A stretch of DNA of 48,402 nucleotides, taken from contig CALWBA010000021.1 of NCBI GenBank assembly GCA_944375815.1, positions 1 through 48,402 of the forward strand, in the 5' to 3' direction. Of this stretch, positions 4,158 to 16,027 are shown in pieces. The position numbers were made by a program, and so were the translations under genes. Under the pieces are notes generated by a model that saw nothing but the letters and a program-made list of their open reading frames with translations, did no database searches and had not been told where the DNA came from. Every line of letters begins with the position of its first letter. Position 1 is the stretch's first letter. Origin of the DNA: an uncultured Lachnospiraceae bacterium (GTDB lineage: Bacteria; Bacillota; Clostridia; Lachnospirales; Lachnospiraceae).

Positions 4158-5627
4158 TCATTGATATTTCAGGTTCTCAAGACTCATCTTTTCCAGCAGA
4201 TCACTCTTGATTCGGTAAAGCTTATCAGAGAGATCCACATAGACCTCATGAGGATTGACAAGGCGCAGTGTCTCGTCCCAGAGTGTTTCCTTTTCTCTGG
4301 CGCATATATCACGGATCTCCATCACGGAAGGAGATGTATAGACGCAGCGGCCCTTTTCGAAGACAGGAACAAGCAGTTCGCGCAGAGTATACGTGCCGCT
4401 CTTGATTTTGGTCTTTTTCCATGTCTCAATCGGATCGAAAATAATCATATCTTTTGAAGTATCAAATGTCTCGTCTGCAAGACAGATCAGGTCGGCCCGG
4501 ATCTTTCCGGTTTCCTTGTCATAAATGCGGAAAATTGTTTTGTTGCCGGGGTTTGTGACCTTCTCGGAGTTCTCAGAGAGTTTGATCTTCGGGATAAACT
4601 CTTCATCTTCTTTGTTTTTAATTGCAGCCAGCTTATACACGCCTCCGAATGCAGGACAGTCCTTGGATGTGATCAGGTTTGTTCCTACACCCCAGGAGTT
4701 GATCTTTGCTCCCTGTGTCTTTAAACTGTCAATCAGGTACTCATCCAGATCGCTGGAAGCAGAGATGATAGCGTCTTCGAATCCGGCATCTGAGAGCATT
4801 TTATACGCTTTCTTGGAGAGGTAGGCGAGGTCTCCGCTGTCAATGCGGATTCCGTAGCCTTTCAGCTCTATGCCCGCATCGCGCATCTCCTGGAAAACGC
4901 GGATAGCATTGGGAATGCCGGAATCCAGCACATCGTATGTATCCACCAACAGGATACAGGAATCGGGATAAAGCTTGGCATACGTCTTAAAGGCGGTATA
5001 TTCATCCGGAAAGCTCATGATCCAGCTGTGCGCATGCGTGCCCTTGACCGGAACGTCAAACATCTGTCCGGTCAGCACGTTGGAGGTTCCGATACAGCCG
5101 CCGATCATTGCAGCGCGGGCACCGTAGATGCCTGCGTCGGGACCCTGTGCGCGGCGAAGTCCGAACTCCATGATGCCGTCACCCTTTGCAGCATAGACTA
5201 CGCGGGAAGCTTTCGTCGCAATCAGGCTCTGATGATTTAAAATATTTAATATTGCCGTCTCCAGAAGCTGAGCTTCCATGACCGGAGCCACGACCTTCAA
5301 AAGAGGTTCCCGCGGGAAAACAACCGTTCCCTCAGGAATTGCATAAATGTCCCCGGTAAAATGGAAACCGCGCAGATACTCCAGAAAATCTGTGTCAAAG
5401 ATTCCAAGTGTCCGCAGATAGTCAATATCGTCGGGATGGAAATGAAGATCACGTACATACTCAATAATCTGCTCCAGTCCTGCAGCAATAGCATATCCGC
5501 CGTCACAGGGATTATGACGGTAAAATGCGTCAAAGACCACGATCTGATCCGTAGGGTTTTTAAAATACCCCTGCATCATTGTCAGCTCGTAGAGGTCTGT
5601 TAATAATGTAAGGTTTGTCGCTCTCAT
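4158..5627 (-). CDS. pncB: Nicotinate phosphoribosyltransferase
   Basis: The 489-residue protein matches the Firmicute nicotinate phosphoribosyltransferase family over its full length. The N-terminus NLTLLTDLYELTMMQGY is diagnostic, as are EFGLRRAQG, GTHAHSWIM and the GYGIRIDSGDLAYLSKK segment. It forms nicotinate mononucleotide from nicotinate, PRPP and ATP, the entry step of NAD salvage. The ATG at 5627 is preceded by AAGGAG and by a good promoter. The gene is transcribed divergently from the cation diffusion facilitator. Nothing about it looks damaged. Confidence 0.96.
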   Translation of the reverse strand: MRATNLTLLTDLYELTMMQGYFKNPTDQIVVFDAFYRHNPCDGGYAIAAGLEQIIEYVRDLHFHPDDIDYLRTLGIFDTDFLEYLRGFHFTGDIYAIPEGTVVFPREPLLKVVAPVMEAQLLETAILNILNHQSLIATKASRVVYAAKGDGIMEFGLRRAQGPDAGIYGARAAMIGGCIGTSNVLTGQMFDVPVKGTHAHSWIMSFPDEYTAFKTYAKLYPDSCILLVDTYDVLDSGIPNAIRVFQEMRDAGIELKGYGIRIDSGDLAYLSKKAYKMLSDAGFEDAIISASSDLDEYLIDSLKTQGAKINSWGVGTNLITSKDCPAFGGVYKLAAIKNKEDEEFIPKIKLSENSEKVTNPGNKTIFRIYDKETGKIRADLICLADETFDTSKDMIIFDPIETWKKTKIKSGTYTLRELLVPVFEKGRCVYTSPSVMEIRDICAREKETLWDETLRLVNPHEVYVDLSDKLYRIKSDLLEKMSLENLKYQ

Positions 5628-5673
5628 AAACTTTTTCTCCTTCTGAAAATAAAAAAGGTTCCAAATTTTTCTT

Positions 5674-5702
5674 ATTATACCACCCGCCTGTTAAAAATAC
5701 AA
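5674..5702 (-). promoter_or_regulatory. Promoter of pncB
   Basis: On the minus strand TTGTAT (5702-5697) and TATAAT (5679-5674) are 17 bp apart. The perfect -10 box lies about 45 bp upstream of the pncB start. Confidence 0.75.
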
Positions 5703-5724
5703 CGATTCACCGAAAAAGTTAGCA

Positions 5725-5754
5725 TTGACTCCCCGGTGATGCACGGGATAAGAT
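5725..5754 (+). promoter_or_regulatory. Promoter of the cation diffusion facilitator gene
   Basis: TTGACT at 5725-5730 and TAAGAT at 5749-5754 are separated by 18 bp. Transcription would begin near 5761, which makes the ATG at 5762 almost leaderless and favours translation from 5786. Confidence 0.6.
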
Positions 5755-5785
5755 ATAGGGAATGAAAAATAGGGGGCAAGATGAT

Positions 5786-6973
5786 ATGACAGAATTTCTT
5801 GTGAGAAGATTTGTAAAGGATTATACGCAGACAGACAGCATCCGAGTACGCACAGATTACGGTATCCTCTCGAGCTTCGTGGGGATCTTCTGCAACGTGC
5901 TGCTGTTTGCTGCAAAGTTCCTTATTGGATTTGTGATGGGAAGTATAGCGGTTATGGCAGATGCGTTCAACAACCTCTCGGACGCCGCATCTTCCATCAT
6001 CAGCTTTATAGGAGTAAAGATGGCGGGGAAACCGGCGGACAAGGATCATCCGTTCGGGCATGGACGAATTGAATACATCGCTGCGCTTATTGTAGCATTT
6101 CTTGTAATCCAGGTGGGATTTTCCTTCTTTAAGAGCGGCGTTGACAAGCTCCGTAATCCGGAAGAGATTACTTTTGAATTGGTTCCGTTTCTGATCCTGC
6201 TTCTTTCTATCGGCGTCAAGCTGTGGATGGCGGCATTTAACAGAAAGCTTGGCAAAAGGATAGACTCTAAGGTAATGCTCGCAACTGCGGCGGACTCCAT
6301 GGGAGATGTTATTACAACCAGTGCAACAGTTCTTTCTATTCTGATCTGTGCGTTTGCGGGAGTAAACATCGATGCGATCGCCGGTATTGCAGTATCTCTC
6401 GTTGTCATATGGTCGGGCGTGAGCATTGCGAAGGATACGCTGGAACCGCTGATCGGAGAGCCTGTGGATCCGGAACTTTATCAGGAAATTACCGACTGCG
6501 TAGAGGGGTATGACGGAGTCCTGGGATCACATGATCTGATTGTGCACAATTACGGACCGGGAAGAAGCATGGCTTCGATTCACGCTGAGGTTCCCAAAGA
6601 TGTGGATATTGAAGCATCCCATGAAATTATTGACCGCATAGAGCGGGAAGTGAGCAGAAAACTGGGAATTTTTCTTGTAATTCATATGGATCCGGCAGAG
6701 GTGAATAATCAGGAACTGACTTACCTGAAAAATCAGCTGACCATCTTTTTATCTGATCTGGATCCCAAGCTGAGCTTTCACGATTTCCGCATGGTAAACG
6801 GTAAAGAGTCGGCAAATCTGATCTTTGATCTTGTGGTTCCGTTCGATTACGCCGAGAAGGATATTGATGAACTTAAGAAACGCATTGAAGAAGGAATGGA
6901 AAAACAGTCCAAATATCCCGGGAAGACGTATCGATGCGTGATGACAATTGACCGGAATTTTATGGGAGAATAA
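5786..6973 (+). CDS. Cation diffusion facilitator family transporter
   Basis: This roughly 395-residue membrane protein belongs to the CDF family of divalent metal/proton antiporters that export Zn, Mn, Fe, Co or Ni. ADAFNNLSD in helix II and ADSMGD in helix V carry the transport-site Asp residues, and the HPFGHGRIEY cytosolic loop is typical. A C-terminal domain (~residues 205-395) resembles the dimeric metal-sensing domain, here longer than usual. The DD-type site (no His) hints at a manganese- or iron-type rather than zinc-type carrier, but this is not proven. ATG 5786 is chosen over 5762 because AGGGGG (5771-5776) is well spaced and the promoter lies just before 5762. A hairpin follows the stop codon. 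Confidence 0.92.
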   Translation: MTEFLVRRFVKDYTQTDSIRVRTDYGILSSFVGIFCNVLLFAAKFLIGFVMGSIAVMADAFNNLSDAASSIISFIGVKMAGKPADKDHPFGHGRIEYIAALIVAFLVIQVGFSFFKSGVDKLRNPEEITFELVPFLILLLSIGVKLWMAAFNRKLGKRIDSKVMLATAADSMGDVITTSATVLSILICAFAGVNIDAIAGIAVSLVVIWSGVSIAKDTLEPLIGEPVDPELYQEITDCVEGYDGVLGSHDLIVHNYGPGRSMASIHAEVPKDVDIEASHEIIDRIEREVSRKLGIFLVIHMDPAEVNNQELTYLKNQLTIFLSDLDPKLSFHDFRMVNGKESANLIFDLVVPFDYAEKDIDELKKRIEEGMEKQSKYPGKTYRCVMTIDRNFMGE

Positions 6974-7090: not shown

Positions 7091-7162
7091 TGGGCTATCG
7101 CCAAACGGTAAGGCAACGGACTCTGACTCCGTCATTTCAAGGTTCGAATCCTTGTAGCCCAG
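7091..7162 (+). tRNA. tRNA-Gln (anticodon CUG), copy 1
   Basis: This 72-nt cloverleaf has acceptor strands TGGGCTA/TAGCCCA with U1-A72 as typical for tRNA-Gln, discriminator G at 7162, and anticodon stem ACGGA/TCCGT enclosing the loop CTCTGAC with anticodon CTG at 7123-7125. The T-arm holds GGTTCGAATCC. CCA is not encoded. It differs from copy 2 by one base in the D-loop (C at 7106). Confidence 0.95.
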
Positions 7163-7192: not shown

Positions 7193-7264
7193 TGGGCTAT
7201 CGCCAAATGGTAAGGCAACGGACTCTGACTCCGTCATTTCAAGGTTCGAATCCTTGTAGCCCAG
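7193..7264 (+). tRNA. tRNA-Gln (anticodon CUG), copy 2
   Basis: This is a near-identical duplicate of the upstream gene, 30 bp later, with anticodon CTG at 7225-7227 and one base difference in the D-loop (T in place of C). It is presumably part of the same transcript, which ends at the terminator just downstream. CCA is not encoded. Confidence 0.95.
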
Positions 7265-9015: not shown

Positions 9016-9600
9016 GTGGATTCGATTGACTATTATAATCGGTACGCTGCGCCTTATTATGAAGCAACTGTCGATTTAGATATGTCAGAAATTATGCAGC
9101 CGTTTATTGACCTGCTGCCTGAGGACGCAGAGGTTCTGGATCTGGGATGCGGATCGGGAAGAGATTCCCTTGCGCTGGAGGAGCATGGATTCTATGTAAG
9201 CTCTATGGACGGCTCTGAGGAAATGTGTAAGCTGGCAAGCATTTATCTGGATAAAGAGGTTCTTCATCTCACCTTTGAGGAGATGGATTTTGACGAGGTG
9301 TTTGACGGTATCTGGGCATGTGCATCCCTGGTACATGTACACCCGGACAATATGCCGATCATTTTAAAAAAGATCTTTAATGCGCTCAAGCCGGGAGGAA
9401 TTTTATACTTCTCCGTCTATGAAGGCAGTCGCGACGGTGTCTACAGAGGAAGATATTACCATGATTACACCAAGGCAGAACTGAGGGAACTTCTGGAAGA
9501 ATTCGAGCATATCGAAGTGCTTGATATCTGGCGGACTCAGGACGTGCGCCAGGAAAAGGGCGACCGGAAATGGCTGAACGTATTGGTGAAGAAGGTATGA
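9016..9600 (+). CDS. Class I SAM-dependent methyltransferase
   Basis: This 194-residue protein has a Rossmann-type methyltransferase fold. Motif I is VLDLGCGSGRDS at residues 40-51, an acidic SSMDGSEEM motif II follows, and PGGILYFSVYEG is the post-motif III strand. The substrate is unknown; proteins of this size and pattern act on small molecules or unknown targets. Translation starts at GTG 9016, with AGGAGG at 9001-9006 and no better ATG upstream. Its stop codon overlaps the dnaE start (ATGA at 9597-9600), implying translational coupling to DNA polymerase III. The pairing with dnaE is positional only and gives no proof of shared function. Confidence 0.87.
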   Translation: MDSIDYYNRYAAPYYEATVDLDMSEIMQPFIDLLPEDAEVLDLGCGSGRDSLALEEHGFYVSSMDGSEEMCKLASIYLDKEVLHLTFEEMDFDEVFDGIWACASLVHVHPDNMPIILKKIFNALKPGGILYFSVYEGSRDGVYRGRYYHDYTKAELRELLEEFEHIEVLDIWRTQDVRQEKGDRKWLNVLVKKV

Positions 9601-11616
9601 GTGTGAATTTTGCCCATTTGCATGTGCATACGGAGTACAGTCTGCTGGACGGCTCCAATAAAATTAAAGAATATGTAGCCAGAGTTAAGGAACTGGGAAT
9701 GAACAGTGCAGCCATTACGGACCACGGCGTCATGTTTGGATGCATTGATTTTTACCGTGCCGCAAAGGAGGCGGGCATTAACCCCATTATAGGCTGTGAG
9801 GTCTATGTGGCGCCCGGCTCCCGCTTTGATAAAGAGCAGGGAAATGCTTCGGAGCGGTACTACCATCTGGTCCTGCTGGCTGAGAATAATACGGGATACG
9901 GTAATCTTATGAAGATCGTATCCCGTGGTTTTACCGAAGGATTTTATTATAAACCCAGAGTGGATCTTGATCTTCTGCGCAGATATCATGAAGGCATCAT
10001 CGGGCTGTCTGCCTGCCTGGCGGGCGAAGTATCCCGAAATCTTGTGCGCGGTTTATATGAGGAAGGGAAGAAGGCCGCACTGCGGTATCTTGACATCTTC
10101 GGAGAGGGGAATTTCTTCCTTGAGCTTCAGGATCACGGAATTCCGGAGCAGCGGATGGTAAATCCGCTGCTTCTGCGGATGAGCCGCGAGACAGGCATTC
10201 CGCTTGTTGCTACAAACGACGTGCATTACACGTATAAGGAAGATGTGGTGCCACACGATATTCTGCTGTGTCTGCAGACCGGAAAGAAGATCGATGATGA
10301 GGACAGAATGCGCTACGAAGGCGGGCAGTATTTCGTGAAATCTCCTGAGGAGATGGAGGAATTGTTCTCATACGCTCCGGAAGCGCTTGAGAATACGCAG
10401 AAGATCGCTGACCGCTGCCATGTGGAGATTGAATTCGGTGTGACGAAGCTGCCAAAGTTTGATGTGCCGGACGGATATACTGCATGGGAATATCTGAATA
10501 AGCTGTGCTTTGAGGGATTGAAGGAGCGGTATCAGCCTGTGACAGCTGAACTTGAGGAACGCCTGAATTATGAGCTGAATACGATTCGTGAAATGGGATA
10601 TGTGGACTATTTCCTGATTGTGTGGGACTTTATCCGCTATGCCCGGGACCATGACATCATGGTGGGACCCGGAAGAGGATCGGCAGCAGGAAGTCTTGTG
10701 TCGTATACGCTGGGCATTACAAAGCTGGATCCGATTCGCTATAATCTGCTGTTTGAGCGGTTCCTGAATCCGGAGCGCGTCTCCATGCCTGATATTGATA
10801 TTGATTTCTGCTTCGAGCGCAGACAGGAGGTTATTGACTATGTGGTTCGAAAGTATGGAAAAGACCGCGTAGTTCAGATTGTGACCTTCGGTACGCTGGC
10901 GGCCCGCGGCGTGATCCGCGATGTGGGAAGAGTGCTGGATATGCCGTATTCTGCAGTTGACGCGATCGCAAAGATGGTTCCTACAGAACTTAACATGACG
11001 ATCGACAAGGCACTGCAGATGAATCCGCAGCTGAGAAAGACGTATGAGGAGGACGATCAGGTTCATTATCTCATCGATATGGCCAAGCGTCTGGAGGGAC
11101 TGCCGCGCCATACTTCCATGCATGCAGCCGGAGTTGTGATCAGTCAGAAAGCGGTAGATGAGTATGTACCGCTGTCAAGAGCATCGGACGGATCGATTAC
11201 CACGCAGTTTACGATGACAACGCTGGAGGAGCTCGGACTTCTGAAGATGGATTTCCTTGGGCTTCGTACGCTGACTGTGATTCAGAACGCAGTTAAGATG
11301 GCGCAGAAGAATAACGGGATTACTCTTGATCTGGATCATGTGGATTACAATGATCCTAAAGTTATGCAGATGATCGGAGCGGGCAGAACTGAGGGCGTAT
11401 TCCAGCTCGAAAGTGCTGGTTTTAAGAGCTTCATGAAGGAACTTAAGCCGCAGAATCTGGAGGATATCATTGCCGGAATTTCTCTGTACCGGCCTGGTCC
11501 TATGGATTTTATTCCGCAGTATATTAAGGGAAAAAATCATCCGGAGGAAATTGTTTACGACTGTCCGCAGCTTAAACCTATTCTGGAGTCGACATACGGG
11601 TGTATTGTATATCAGG
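9597..11616 (+). CDS. dnaE: DNA polymerase III subunit alpha, 5' exon (gene split by group II intron)
   Basis: This exon encodes residues 1-673 plus the first base of codon 674. It contains the N-terminal PHP domain (HLHVHTEYSLLDG, residues ~7-19) and the polymerase palm, with catalytic aspartates at D401 and D403 (PDIDIDF) and D552 (KMDFLGL). ATG 9597 is preferred to 9570: it overlaps the upstream stop codon as ATGA and gives the standard short DnaE N-terminus. Reading ends in STYGCIVYQ, after which the intron begins with GTGCGAC. Without splicing, translation would run a few codons into the intron and stop at TAA 11631-11633, leaving a polymerase without fingers. Joined to 14562-16027, the frame gives 1161 residues, the normal DnaE length. 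Confidence 0.95.
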
Positions 11617-12413
11617 GTGCGACTCGTTCCTAACCGAAATTCACAAGGTTAGGCACGATGTTCAGATTAAGTGCGAAAGCACCGAAATGAAATATTGTGA
11701 ACTACAACTTTGAAGTATGGAATGATAGGGTAACGCCTAGAAACATACTCTTTAATACTCCGACTAGCATATGTAAACGAAAGTTGATATGTTAGAAGCT
11801 CGGTGAAGTCGGCAGAAGCTGACCTAAGTCAAAGAAATAATTGAGTATGATTGGTTCAAAAGTGGCTAGAGCCCACCTGTCAAGAAAGATTAAAGTATGA
11901 GATATGGTCAGTGATATGTCGGAAGTCTATAAAATACCTATGGTGAGTATGTCATAACGACTGACAAACTCGAGAAATTAAAGGACCTATATACGACTGT
12001 ATGGAAACATACAGGGCCGCTTACGACGGTGTTAGTGTGGTAAAGTAAGAATCTTGGTTATGAAATACCATAATATGCGAAATCTTCGGATGGCGGGCAT
12101 ATTCAAGCTAACAGGTCTATATTGAGCACCTAAGGGTATATGTACAGATAGAAGTTGTGGAACGAGGAAAGGTACTGGGCGAATCGTATTAATCGCAGGT
12201 TGTCGAAGACAATAAGCAACCGAACCAGTGCTGAAAAGCAGTGGTCGAACCTAAGAAGTTCCTGTAATGGGAATGGAGGAATGGCCACAAGTCGTTGTAA
12301 TTCTTTTTATAGTACGGCAGTATAATTAATTTGTTCATTCAAATTTTAATAGGGATTTCGTGTATGACTAAAAAGGCTCACTTTCAATTCTGAAGAAAGG
12401 AAGTGAGAACCCT

Positions 12414-14372
12414 ATGCCTAAAAAGACGAAATGCATTGATAGTTTGAGACATAATGAATACTATAATATGCAAAGTGTTTTTGACGAACTTTATAACGAA
12501 AGCATACAGGGCTCAGTATTTCACGAATTAATGGACAAAATCCTTGAAGAAGATAACATACTACTTGCATATCGCAATATTAAAACTAACGGTGGTAGCA
12601 ATACCCCAGGTACAGATGGCTTATCCATCAAAGATATTGCGAGAATGGAACCGCAAAAAGTGGTTGAAAAAGTAAGATTTATACTGAGAGGAAGCCAACA
12701 TGGATACAGACCAAAAGCTGTTAGAAGAAAGGAAATTCCAAAACCAAACGGGAAAACAAGGCCACTTGGAATACCGTGTATTTGGGATAGACTGATTCAG
12801 CAATGTATCAAACAGGTTATGGAACCAATCTGTGAAGCTAAATTCTCTGAAAATAGCTATGGATTCCGTCCTAACCGCTCTGTAGAACACGCAATTGCAC
12901 GAAGCTACAGACTGTTGCAGATGTCCAACCTACACTATGTTATTGAATTTGACATTAAAGGATTTTTTGATAATGTAGACCATAGCAAGCTGATAAAGCA
13001 GATATGGGCACTAGGTATACGAGATAAAGAGTTAATCTATATAATCAAAAGAATACTAAAAGCTCCAATTAAGATGTCAGACGGTAGCCTGATTAGTCCA
13101 GAAAAAGGCACGCCGCAAGGTGGTATTTTATCACCTCTATTAGCTAACATTGTACTCAATGAACTAGACCACTGGGTTGAAAGTCAATGGCAGTACAGTA
13201 AAGTGACAGATAATTACAGACAACGCCCACAAAGCAATGGAACTGTAGATAGAAGTCATGGCTACAGAGCAATGCGAGAATCCACAAAACTCAAAGAGAT
13301 GTGGATTGTAAGGTATGCGGACGACTTCAGAATTTTCTGTAAAACAAGAAGTGATGCAGAAAAGACTAAGATAGCCATCGAAAAATGGTTAAAGGACAGA
13401 CTGAGGTTAGACATATCATCTGAAAAAATTCGCATTGTAAATACAAGGCAAAAACCAATGGAATTTTTAGGATTTAGCATTAAAGTTCGTAAAAAGAAAA
13501 AAGATACTAAGTATGTTGTAGATTCACATATTAGTCCCAAAGCTCTCAAGGATAAAAGTGATAAACTAGCAAATCAAGTTAAAGTATTTTGTAAGTTCAA
13601 AGATTCAGACCAAGGTGCAAAAGAGGTTGTAATTTATAATTCAATGGTTTTGGGAATACAGAACTATTACAGAATTGCAACCAATGTAGCAAGCGACTTG
13701 AATGTAATTCAACAGCGAACCTACAGGATTATGTATAATAGATTGAACACACAAAGCGGAAACGCCCTGCGAAAGGAAGGCAGAAAGCTAACCCCGTTAG
13801 AGGTACACCGATTTGGAAAATCGAAGTCTCTCAGATATATAGCAGGAACACGAGAACCTATATATCCAATTTATTACATACAGTGCAAAAACCCGATGGC
13901 GTTTAATCGTAGGATATGTCCTTATACAAGTGAGGGCAGAGCTATTGTACACGACAGGCTGGGAATTAACTGCAATCTGCTGTACCAACTGATGAATCAA
14001 AAACTTACTGATGGTAGTATTGAATTTTATGATAACAGAATATCGCTATACAGTGCCCAGCAGGGAAAATGCTATATTACAAGCAAAGAATTTTTGAGTC
14101 TTGAGGATATTCATTGTCACCATAAAATTGCAAAAAGCAAGGGCGGTACAGACGAATATTCCAATCTAGTTCTGGTGGATAAAGATGTTCATAAATTAAT
14201 ACACGCAACAGATATTGAAGTTATAAAATACTATATTGAAGTGCTAAAACTTAAAGCTAAACAACTAGAAAAGCTTAATAGTCTAAGACAGTACTTAGGC
14301 TTATCGATGATTGTGAAAAAGAAAAAGAGCCTAATGCTTAGTTATAACGAAAACATGGCGTCAGCATCCTAA
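12414..14372 (+). CDS. ltrA: Group II intron reverse transcriptase/maturase with HNH endonuclease domain
   Basis: The 652-residue intron-encoded protein appears intact. It has the RT fingers and palm (GTDGLSIKDI, PKPNGKTRPLGIP, YGFRPNRSVEHAI, FDIKGFFDNVDH, GTPQGGILSPLLAN) with catalytic YADD at residues 301-304 and the FLGFSIK block. The X/maturase thumb region follows (~390-480). A C-terminal HNH domain contains HCHHK at 567-571, GGTDEYSNLVLV and HKLIHA. The protein helps the intron fold and splice, and copies it into new sites by target-primed reverse transcription, with HNH cutting the second strand. It starts at ATG 12414 after AAGGAAGTGAG, inside intron domain IV. All catalytic motifs are present, so both splicing help and mobility are plausible. 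Confidence 0.96.
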   Translation: MPKKTKCIDSLRHNEYYNMQSVFDELYNESIQGSVFHELMDKILEEDNILLAYRNIKTNGGSNTPGTDGLSIKDIARMEPQKVVEKVRFILRGSQHGYRPKAVRRKEIPKPNGKTRPLGIPCIWDRLIQQCIKQVMEPICEAKFSENSYGFRPNRSVEHAIARSYRLLQMSNLHYVIEFDIKGFFDNVDHSKLIKQIWALGIRDKELIYIIKRILKAPIKMSDGSLISPEKGTPQGGILSPLLANIVLNELDHWVESQWQYSKVTDNYRQRPQSNGTVDRSHGYRAMRESTKLKEMWIVRYADDFRIFCKTRSDAEKTKIAIEKWLKDRLRLDISSEKIRIVNTRQKPMEFLGFSIKVRKKKKDTKYVVDSHISPKALKDKSDKLANQVKVFCKFKDSDQGAKEVVIYNSMVLGIQNYYRIATNVASDLNVIQQRTYRIMYNRLNTQSGNALRKEGRKLTPLEVHRFGKSKSLRYIAGTREPIYPIYYIQCKNPMAFNRRICPYTSEGRAIVHDRLGINCNLLYQLMNQKLTDGSIEFYDNRISLYSAQQGKCYITSKEFLSLEDIHCHHKIAKSKGGTDEYSNLVLVDKDVHKLIHATDIEVIKYYIEVLKLKAKQLEKLNSLRQYLGLSMIVKKKKSLMLSYNENMASAS

Positions 14373-14478
14373 TCATTGACTCTGTGACCTGTATAATAGC
14401 ATCGGAAAAATGAGAGGAAGTTGTAGCTGAACCCTTTTAGGTTATTTGATTAGAACGAATGAGAATTACAACGATGGA

Positions 14479-14512
14479 ACGCCGTGTGCGGTGAAAGGCG
14501 CACGCACGGTGT
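14479..14512 (+). ncRNA. Group II intron domain V
   Basis: The 34-nt hairpin has arms ACGCCGTGTGCG and CGCACGCACGGTGT around a GTGAAAGG-type loop, matching the group II domain V consensus almost base for base. The catalytic triad position reads CGC instead of the more common AGC; CGC also occurs in functional introns. The intron 3' end lies 49 nt downstream, leaving room for domain VI. Confidence 0.9.
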
Positions 14513-14561
14513 GGAGTGGGGGAAAACTTGGAGATTACATCAAAGAGTTACCTATCACTAT

Positions 14562-16027
14562 AGCAGGTTATGCAGATTGTCCGTGAGCTTGGAGGATATA
14601 CGCTGGGCAGGAGCGATCTGGTGCGGCGTGCGATGTCCAAGAAGAAGGCAGCTGTGATGGAAAAGGAGCGAAGAAATTTCGTTTACGGCAATCCTGAAGA
14701 GGGTGTGCCGGGCTGCATTGCCAACGGTATTGACGAGAAGGTGGCAAATAAGATTTATGATGAGATGATCGACTTCGCGAAATATGCTTTTAATAAGTCT
14801 CATGCAGCGGCATATGCGGTTGTGTCATATCAGACCGCATATCTGAAGTACTATTATCCGGTGGAGTTTATGGCAGCTCTGATGACATCCTGTATTGAAA
14901 ATCCCAGTAAGGTTTCAGAGTATATCATGAACTGCCGTCAGATGGGAATCGAGATTCTTCCTCCCGATGTGAACAAGAGCATCGGCTACTTCTCAGTGGA
15001 GGGATCTTCCATTCGCTACGGCCTGACAGCAATCAAGGGAATAGGAAAGCCGGTTATGGAGGCTATTGAAGAGGCCAGAAAGGATGGCCCGTTCCTGTCT
15101 CTGCAGGATTTTCTGGAGCGCATCAGCGGAAGGGACATCAACAAGCGCAACGTTGAGAACCTTATCAAGTCGGGAGCGCTGGATGGCCTGGGAGGCACCA
15201 GACGACAGTTTATGATGATTTATCTGCAGGTTATGGAGGATGTCTCAAGAGAGCATAAAAATTCTATTACAGGGCAGATGAGCCTTTTTGACCTCGTCGG
15301 AGAGGAAGAAAAGAAGGTATTTCAGGTTCAGCTTCCCAATGTGGGAGAATATACGAAGGAGATGAAGCTCGCCTTTGAGAAAGAAGTGCTGGGCGTATAC
15401 ATCAGCGGACACCCGCTGGAGGAGTACGAAGAGCGCTGGAGAAAGAATATAACTGCTACGACTGCAGATTTTCAGCCCGATGAGGACACGGGCTTCCCAC
15501 ATGTCAGAGATGGGGAAAAGGTTATCTGCGGCGGTATGATAACGGATAAGACAATCAAGTATACGAAGACGAATAAGGTTATGGCATTTCTCACTCTTGA
15601 GGATCTTGTAGGCACGGTGGAAGTCGTGGTATTTCCCAGAGACTATGAGCGAAATATGGGGCTGATAGAGGCAGATGCAAAGGTATTTATCCGAGGACGG
15701 GTTTCAGCGGAGGATGAAAAGGCAAGCAAGCTGATCTGCGAAAAGATCATATCTTTTGACGATTCTCCCAGGGAAGTATGGATTCAGTTCCAGGATAAGG
15801 CGTCCTACGAGAGACAGGTTCATGGACTTTACGAAAATTTAAAAGAGTCGGATGGAAAGGATCAGGTAGTGATCTATCTGCGCCGGGAAAAGGCTTTAAA
15901 ACGGCTTCCGGCAAGCCGCAGCGTGAGCGCAGATGAGGCGCTTTTAGGGCGTTTAAGGGCACTTTACGGTGAGGAGAACGTGAAAGTTGTAGAAAAGAGT
16001 ATTGAAAATCTTGCTGGAATGAATTAG
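14562..16027 (+). CDS. dnaE: DNA polymerase III subunit alpha, 3' exon
   Basis: This exon completes codon 674 and encodes residues 675-1161: the fingers (QVMQIVRELGGYTLGRSDLVRRAMSKKK), the helix-hairpin-helix region (DINKRNVENLIKSGALDGLGG), and an OB-fold domain (VICGGMITDKTIKY ... VEVVVFPRDYERN). GQMSLFDL, before the OB fold, fits the beta-clamp-binding consensus QxxLF. No start codon or ribosome binding site of its own is needed, since it is joined to 9597-11616 by intron splicing. Nothing in the exon suggests decay: the frame is open to TAG 16025-16027. In Firmicutes DnaE works beside PolC at the replication fork, extending RNA primers, so correct splicing should matter for growth. Confidence 0.95.

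Follow-up and report, generated by a model that had tools for sequence, protein, structure and literature searches.

The window analysed here is a stretch of 48,402 nucleotides from an uncultured Lachnospiraceae bacterium (contig CALWBA010000021.1 of assembly GCA_944375815.1). It contains a dnaE gene, for the alpha chain of DNA polymerase III, and within this gene, in phase 1, a complete group II intron that encodes an RT/HNH protein. The features of the locus are listed below in order of position.

9597-11616, forward strand: dnaE exon 1, made up of codons 1-673 and the first base of codon 674; an open frame once joined to exon 2, with PHP, DNA_pol3_alpha and finger domains.
11605-11610, forward strand: IBS2 (TTGTAT), pairing at 6 of 6 bases with EBS2 at 11991-11996.
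11611-11616, forward strand: IBS1 (ATCAGG), pairing at 6 of 6 bases with EBS1, with G.U pairs only at the synonymous positions -2 and -5.
11617-14561, forward strand: the group II intron, 2945 bases, GTGCG...AT, defined by its Rfam halves, the empty sites of relatives and boundaries common to relatives.
11697-11933, forward strand: core of ribozyme domain I (Rfam RF02004, 130.2 bits).
11991-11996, forward strand: EBS2 (ATACGA), whose fourth base complements the base at exon position -10, either G or A, in all 12 introns at this site.
12053-12058, forward strand: EBS1 (CTTGGT), identical in 12 of 12 introns at this site; introns of two other dnaE sites have ATTTGT and ATTCCA there.
12414-14372, forward strand: ORF of 652 residues for the intron-encoded RT/maturase with HNH endonuclease, YADD present, supported by profile matches and by purifying selection among relatives.
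14477-14561, forward strand: domains V and VI (Rfam RF00029, 55.7 bits), with compensatory changes across relatives.
14554, forward strand: likely branch-point adenosine, unpaired in the folded domain VI helix and eighth base from the 3' end, its role being that expected from the family.
14562-16027, forward strand: dnaE exon 2, in which the finger-domain match continues and the joined frame stays open.

Joining 11616 to 14562 gives a single open frame, of 1170 residues from the ATG at 9570 or of 1161 from the ATG at 9597, the latter being the length given in the initial annotation. The joined frame and the Rfam matches also agree to the base with the phase 1 group II intron which that annotation had placed here. 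The ends fit the group II rule (5' GUGYG, 3' AY), and covariance-model searches put both RNA halves above the Rfam gathering cut-offs (RF02004 and RF00029). The ORF matches Pfam RVT_1 and HNH, and scores 342.6 against the NCBIfam group II maturase equivalog (cut-off 300), so that RNA domain V and the RT/maturase are both intact, as had been proposed. As a group II intron, the element would be expected to splice as a lariat. The site had been placed at the junction of palm and fingers, but PF17657, the Pfam finger domain, matches on either side of the intron, which puts the insertion inside the finger domain.

The genome that holds the window (G000) is a metagenome-like assembly of 2.54 Mb in 236 contigs, 83% complete, in which the intron is present as a single copy. 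At that completeness a single DnaE is present, together with an uninterrupted PolC-type gene whose frame spans 1511 residues, the PolC call being made by length and distant similarity. A second intact dnaE, which would make the split gene dispensable, was thus not found in this genome, and none is apparent in the eight other host genomes of named loci, in three of which (G421, G425 and G427) the DnaE matches are split over two contigs. Each of these eight, which are among the 11 other host genomes searched, has a PolC-type match, as do the rest of the 11. The genes flanking dnaE in the window are, in our reading, methyltransferase-like and phosphofructokinase-like, and the phosphofructokinase-like gene also lies 3' of dnaE in 10 of 12 related loci. 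Elsewhere in the window there are a ribosomal protein L10 leader (RF00557, 2368-2506) and tandem, near-identical tRNA-Gln (CTG) genes (7091-7162 and 7193-7264). The same genome has a short RT gene of 322 residues with YCDD (contig C107, 8843-9418; L160), which looks like a retron reverse transcriptase.

Both genomes of the same genus that were searched have an uninterrupted dnaE, with 97% (G002) and 95% (G001) amino acid identity to that of the window. DNA identity to G002 is level along dnaE, with no foreign tract beside the junction and hence no sign of exon co-conversion. The empty sites, together with the absence of a co-converted tract, fit a recent RNA-mediated insertion; loss from both relatives is the alternative explanation for the empty sites.

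The intron is not a single oddity. A scan of the genome collection with the intron protein found 58 loci, eight of which lie in dnaE at exactly the same place, including one in an isolate, Clostridium algidicarnis DSM 15099. Adding the window intron and those of three further species gives 12 introns at this position, here called site A (YQ/E), and the window intron is therefore a member of a site-specific dnaE lineage. The eight other intron proteins are 66-89% identical to that of the window. The lineage is sparse: among 397 genomes of the family the 5' junction in dnaE was found in 4, and among 391 of the class in 1, counts that include the window's own genome both times and that, resting on an exact pattern, miss diverged junctions. 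Metagenome assemblies make up most of the site-A hosts, and the presence of a PolC-type gene in a bin labelled Bacteroides shows that bin labels are open to error; this raises the question of whether the introns are artefacts, a mobile element having been placed in dnaE contigs by faulty assembly. We regard this as the least likely of the explanations considered, given the intron in the isolate, exact restoration of the frame at the intron ends in 11 of 12 introns (those with both exons; the contig of L005 stops at the 3' end of its intron), EBS1 pairing in 12 of 12, the single copy in the window's genome, and the differing lengths of the protein-less forms described below. In the related genome G007, contigs C43 and C44 hold many dnaE fragments on both strands, 38-89% identical and several with stops, which is perhaps a chimeric assembly.

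In the wider clade 60 loci were tried. Both intron ends were found by pattern in 37, seven of which were dropped as the joined frame was short, cut or on the opposite strand; the ends of the L008 and L010 introns were read by eye. The remaining 30 introns, with a usable joined frame, represent 13 sites, namely dnaE and 12 others (that of L024 being doubtful). Many of the others are apparently in genes for conjugation ATPases and the like, judging by eye from the peptides. The insertion is in phase 1 at 12 of the 13 in-gene sites, the exception being L040 and L024 being doubtful, and likewise at two further dnaE sites found in genus g308. In a phase 1 insertion the junction follows the first codon position and precedes the second, and these two positions are the least degenerate. 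An early in-frame stop as the cause of the phase was discarded, since the distance to the first stop in that frame varies from 11 to 95 bases. The motifs YQEQ and FNKSH, at two of the dnaE sites, are common to the polymerase III alpha chains 2hpi and 2hnh, which we take to be those of Thermus and E. coli respectively; RPGPM, at the third, is found in 2hpi only, 2hnh having RPGPL.

The relationship between introns and hosts was analysed using trees of both. In a tree of 63 RT sequences, the nine dnaE intron proteins form one clade (support 100/99, and present in 100% of 200 bootstrap trees); G309, G806 and G807 of genus g308 have no intron protein and so are outside this tree. In a DnaE tree of 32 sequences, the distribution of the ten intron-bearing hosts requires 8 changes, of which well-supported branches force at least 6. 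Shuffling the host labels gives 8.6 changes on average, with 196 of 500 shuffles needing as few as 8. A single clade of intron proteins set against hosts scattered over the DnaE tree points to horizontal spread, in which the intron lineage moves between species while the host dnaE genes stay native. Consistent with this, the intron proteins are more alike than the DnaE proteins in 34 of the 35 pairs with overlap (the pair L005-L009, with no DnaE overlap, being left out). A single old insertion into dnaE, lost in most descendants, would account for the single clade of intron proteins, but it is a highly improbable history: the intron and DnaE trees disagree, and C. algidicarnis shares 86-87% identity with L005 and L006 in the intron protein against only 52-58% in DnaE.

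No phage or plasmid vehicle for the transfer was found. The dnaE junction has no match in viral contigs, four of which carry proteins 51-58% identical to the intron protein; the best phage record has 60.5% protein identity, and among the 5000 plasmid records counted none reaches 60%. We also considered, and rejected, a transfer into Bacteroides, as suggested by the label of the L008 bin, whose DnaE is split. To our knowledge Bacteroides lack PolC, and the bin has a PolC-type match with a frame of 1498 residues, and a DnaE 52% identical to that of the window. The bin, which forms the longest branch of the DnaE tree, is probably mislabelled.

The pairing between intron and exon provides clues as to how the intron would find dnaE. 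EBS1 is CUUGGU in all 12 site-A introns and pairs with the host exon at all six bases in each of them, even though the hosts use all four spellings of Tyr-Gln (TAT or TAC, CAA or CAG). The only G.U pairs are at the two synonymous positions, -5 and -2, opposite which EBS1 has G and U and so pairs with all four TAY-CAR spellings. At site A the guide thus appears robust to codon choice, and any dnaE with TAY-CAR-G would be a possible EBS1 target. EBS2 matches less strictly, with 4 to 6 of 6 pairs across the 12 introns (its letters in the later-found introns being placed by alignment); the mismatches are at the third codon position -8 in 7 of 12 and once at -11. Its fourth base follows the exon in 12 of 12, being C opposite an exon G (Val) and U opposite an exon A (Ile). 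The assignment of EBS1 is confirmed by its change to match at the two further g308 dnaE sites, where ATTTGT and ATTCCA each match their own exon. At dnaE sites A and B alike, both synonymous positions are faced by G or U in the guide. The site-A guide may equally reflect ancestry rather than adaptation, because CUUGGU is the plain complement of TAC-CAA-G and could derive from a host with the spelling TAC-CAA. Codon wobble in the guide was also considered as a general rule and discarded, since inspection by eye shows a mismatch at -2 in L023, and the synonymous positions in L056 are apparently paired by C and A.

Three of the eight genomes of genus g308 (G309, G806 and G807) have site-A introns and the other five an uninterrupted dnaE at that site; in G811 dnaE is split between two contigs, elsewhere than at site A. 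All three introns keep the ribozyme and, unlike that of the window, have no protein, their lengths being 801, 911 and 1160 bases. In the shortest, that of G309, domain IV has shrunk to a stem and a loop of about 22 bases, and the Rfam halves are still above cut-off at 136.7 and 59.7 bits. Two of these genomes have a further dnaE intron: that of G806, at FNK/SH, retains protein remnants, and that of G807, at RPGPM(E)/F, has no protein; all four introns of these two genomes keep both Rfam halves. The g308 introns are all in phase 1, and their joined frames are open over 1154 codons from the first aligned residue. Intron B (L172, reverse complement of 5321-6750) starts with GTTCG rather than GTGCG between intact host exons; because of this start its splicing may be poor, the altered 5' end being either tolerated or a sign of impairment. 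A RAGATH-18 RNA match lies near the G807 dnaE (L173, 8035-8109, minus strand).

The G309 genome (99% complete) contains no match to the intron protein. Its only RVT_1 match is a protein of 326 residues with YCDD (C20, 28891-29466; L159), which by our reading resembles a retron RT. Other RT matches, at 30-40% identity, are present in G806 and G807, the former of which also contains the intron-B remnant. In a tree of the intron RNAs (18 sequences) the three protein-less site-A introns do not group together: each has its own position among protein-bearing introns, which requires three changes, all of them forced. That of G807 adjoins L005 with support of 100/100, while the introns of the two other dnaE sites branch outside site A (83/81). 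Unless the protein was regained, the three forced changes mean three losses, and it was apparently lost three times independently in g308. L011 represents a fourth stage, in which the protein gene lacks about 80 codons and has a frame change, judging from the match coordinates.

Pairs in domains V and VI are kept in 98.1% of 630 cells (21 sequences, a set that leaves out the G806 site-A intron, with its domain VI insertion), and 11 of 30 pairs have changed on both sides. The observed covariation is reached by none of 500 shuffles on four measures and by one of 500 on a fifth. The protein-less G807 site-A intron has a unique swap of C-G to G-C at one domain V pair, and none of 20 shuffled sequences folds as well as the complete G309 intron (z -3.32). 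Among the intact intron proteins, dN/dS is 0.045-0.093 in the 5 of 28 pairs with estimable dS; L006 has YGDD in place of YADD.

The joined DnaE has a dN/dS of 0.016 between the window and G002, and of 0.064, 0.067 and 0.068 among G806, G807 and G309, pairwise values that average the time before and after insertion and that are saturated in several other pairs. The intron-free pair G805 and G810 gives 0.038 (the G809 row, of 2 codons, being omitted from the DnaE comparison). Amino acid changes number 17 on the window's branch and 9 on that of G002. In the intron-bearing species of g308 the RNA cores are intact and the exons are under purifying selection; their introns are presumed to splice. 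The uninterrupted PolC-type gene of the window's genome, and the PolC-type matches in 11 other hosts, could suggest that DnaE is dispensable and the split gene decaying, so that splicing would be irrelevant. DnaE is essential beside PolC in Bacillus subtilis. We consider a decaying gene very unlikely in view of the low dN/dS (0.016-0.068) and open exons in intron-bearing species, and of the three protein-less site-A introns that keep both Rfam halves above cut-offs.

On the basis of these observations, we propose that the intron is a complete and probably mobile group II retroelement, belonging to a lineage that homes on one conserved dnaE site, has spread horizontally, and has protein-less forms in g308; we give this reading a probability of roughly 85%. 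The intron would be transcribed with dnaE, fold, and splice with the help of its own protein, restoring the reading frame. The complex of RNA and protein would recognise an empty dnaE by EBS1 and EBS2 pairing and then retrohome, as the pairing, the trees and the empty sites suggest. Since EBS1 pairs however Tyr-Gln-Glu is spelled, and this motif is conserved even in distant bacterial DnaE proteins, jumps between species may be easier. Exact excision would be enforced because only one DnaE is seen in each host, and because the species tested show purifying selection on DnaE. In g308, where the protein was apparently lost three times and the ribozyme kept, the introns would splice alone or with other factors. 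A bolder account of g308, which we offer tentatively and at somewhat less than even odds, is of a polymerase gene with up to two group II introns lacking a working protein, at least three maturase losses at one site, and at least one species splicing dnaE without any group II protein: a state like that of organelles, reached more than once in bacteria and derived from a lineage whose guide reads an amino acid motif whatever its codon spelling.

The initial annotation had suggested that the level of DnaE could be tied to splicing efficiency. A domesticated intron, kept by the host since its splicing sets the amount of polymerase, would sit well in a gene found once per genome, and Ll.LtrB is reported, in the portion of PMC6003770 consulted, to reduce expression of its host gene. 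Such an intron would hardly be absent from both same-genus genomes and from five of eight g308 species, nor patchy on the DnaE tree, and the intact intron proteins are under purifying selection as in a mobile element. We consider regulation unlikely, and the suggested tie to splicing efficiency is unsupported: since the insertion is apparently recent and horizontally acquired, a selfish homing element explains it more simply.

Group II introns are regarded as ancestors of spliceosomal introns, and the step from a mobile element to a protein-free intron in a core gene has been seen mostly in organelles. Some introns of Trichodesmium erythraeum are in dnaN. The view from which this study began, that bacterial group II introns mostly avoid essential genes, agrees with the parts of PMC4424553 and PMC6003770 available to us. 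In the consulted portions of the literature they are rare in housekeeping or essential genes, yet known there, as in recA of Geobacillus, in cyanobacteria and in Trichodesmium (PMC4424553, PMC6003770, PMC3522654, PMC4649490, PMC3919590, PMC8919778, PMC4853749, PMC12702839). Titles and abstract openings, with few subscription journals and without Zbase, where members may be listed, contain no earlier report of a group II intron in dnaE or DNA polymerase III alpha, in C. algidicarnis, or in an essential gene of Lachnospiraceae. The intron itself is of a known kind; what is new is the dnaE-specific lineage, its horizontal spread and the repeated loss of the maturase.

The closest parallels differ in several respects, going by those portions of the cited papers. 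The Geobacillus kaustophilus recA intron (Chee and Takami 2005, as cited in PMC3522654 and PMC4424553) is likewise an active intron in an essential gene of a Gram-positive, but has a single host, whereas the dnaE lineage occupies a different gene in many species and includes protein-less forms. Trichodesmium erythraeum also has introns in coding genes, 10 of 17 of them without an ORF, but some are helped by a trans-acting maturase, while G309 has no group II RT match; nor is horizontal spread at the same site, as seen in dnaE, described in the text of PMC4649490 at hand. According to PMC4424553 (2015), ORF-less introns are rare in bacteria and C.te.I1 of Clostridium tetani is the sole one without a related protein in its genome. 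This intron (PMC3919590, PMC4424553) resembles the g308 forms in being protein-less and is found, as that of G309 may be, in a genome without a group II protein, but it lies in a surface-layer protein gene and takes part in alternative splicing, whereas the dnaE introns break conserved codons of a replication gene. Six ORF-less introns are described in phages (PMC12350094). The protein-less g308 introns may be a rare bacterial parallel to the splicing-only introns of organelles, and the transition is testable, since full, broken and protein-less forms occur at the same dnaE base and relatives with empty sites can serve as controls.

Inteins and homing-endonuclease group I introns likewise occupy conserved codons and can spread horizontally. 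In the sections of PMC2814812 seen, these elements prefer conserved codons while group II introns show no preference for conserved sites; the dnaE-site lineage, whose recognition is by RNA pairing, runs against this finding, at least for this lineage. The closest plasmid-borne proteins among the 5000 records counted are those of Enterococcus faecium (NC_017961 and others), 59% identical over 96%, which are outside the tree; each of the eight other proteins from the dnaE site is closer to that of the window (66-89%).
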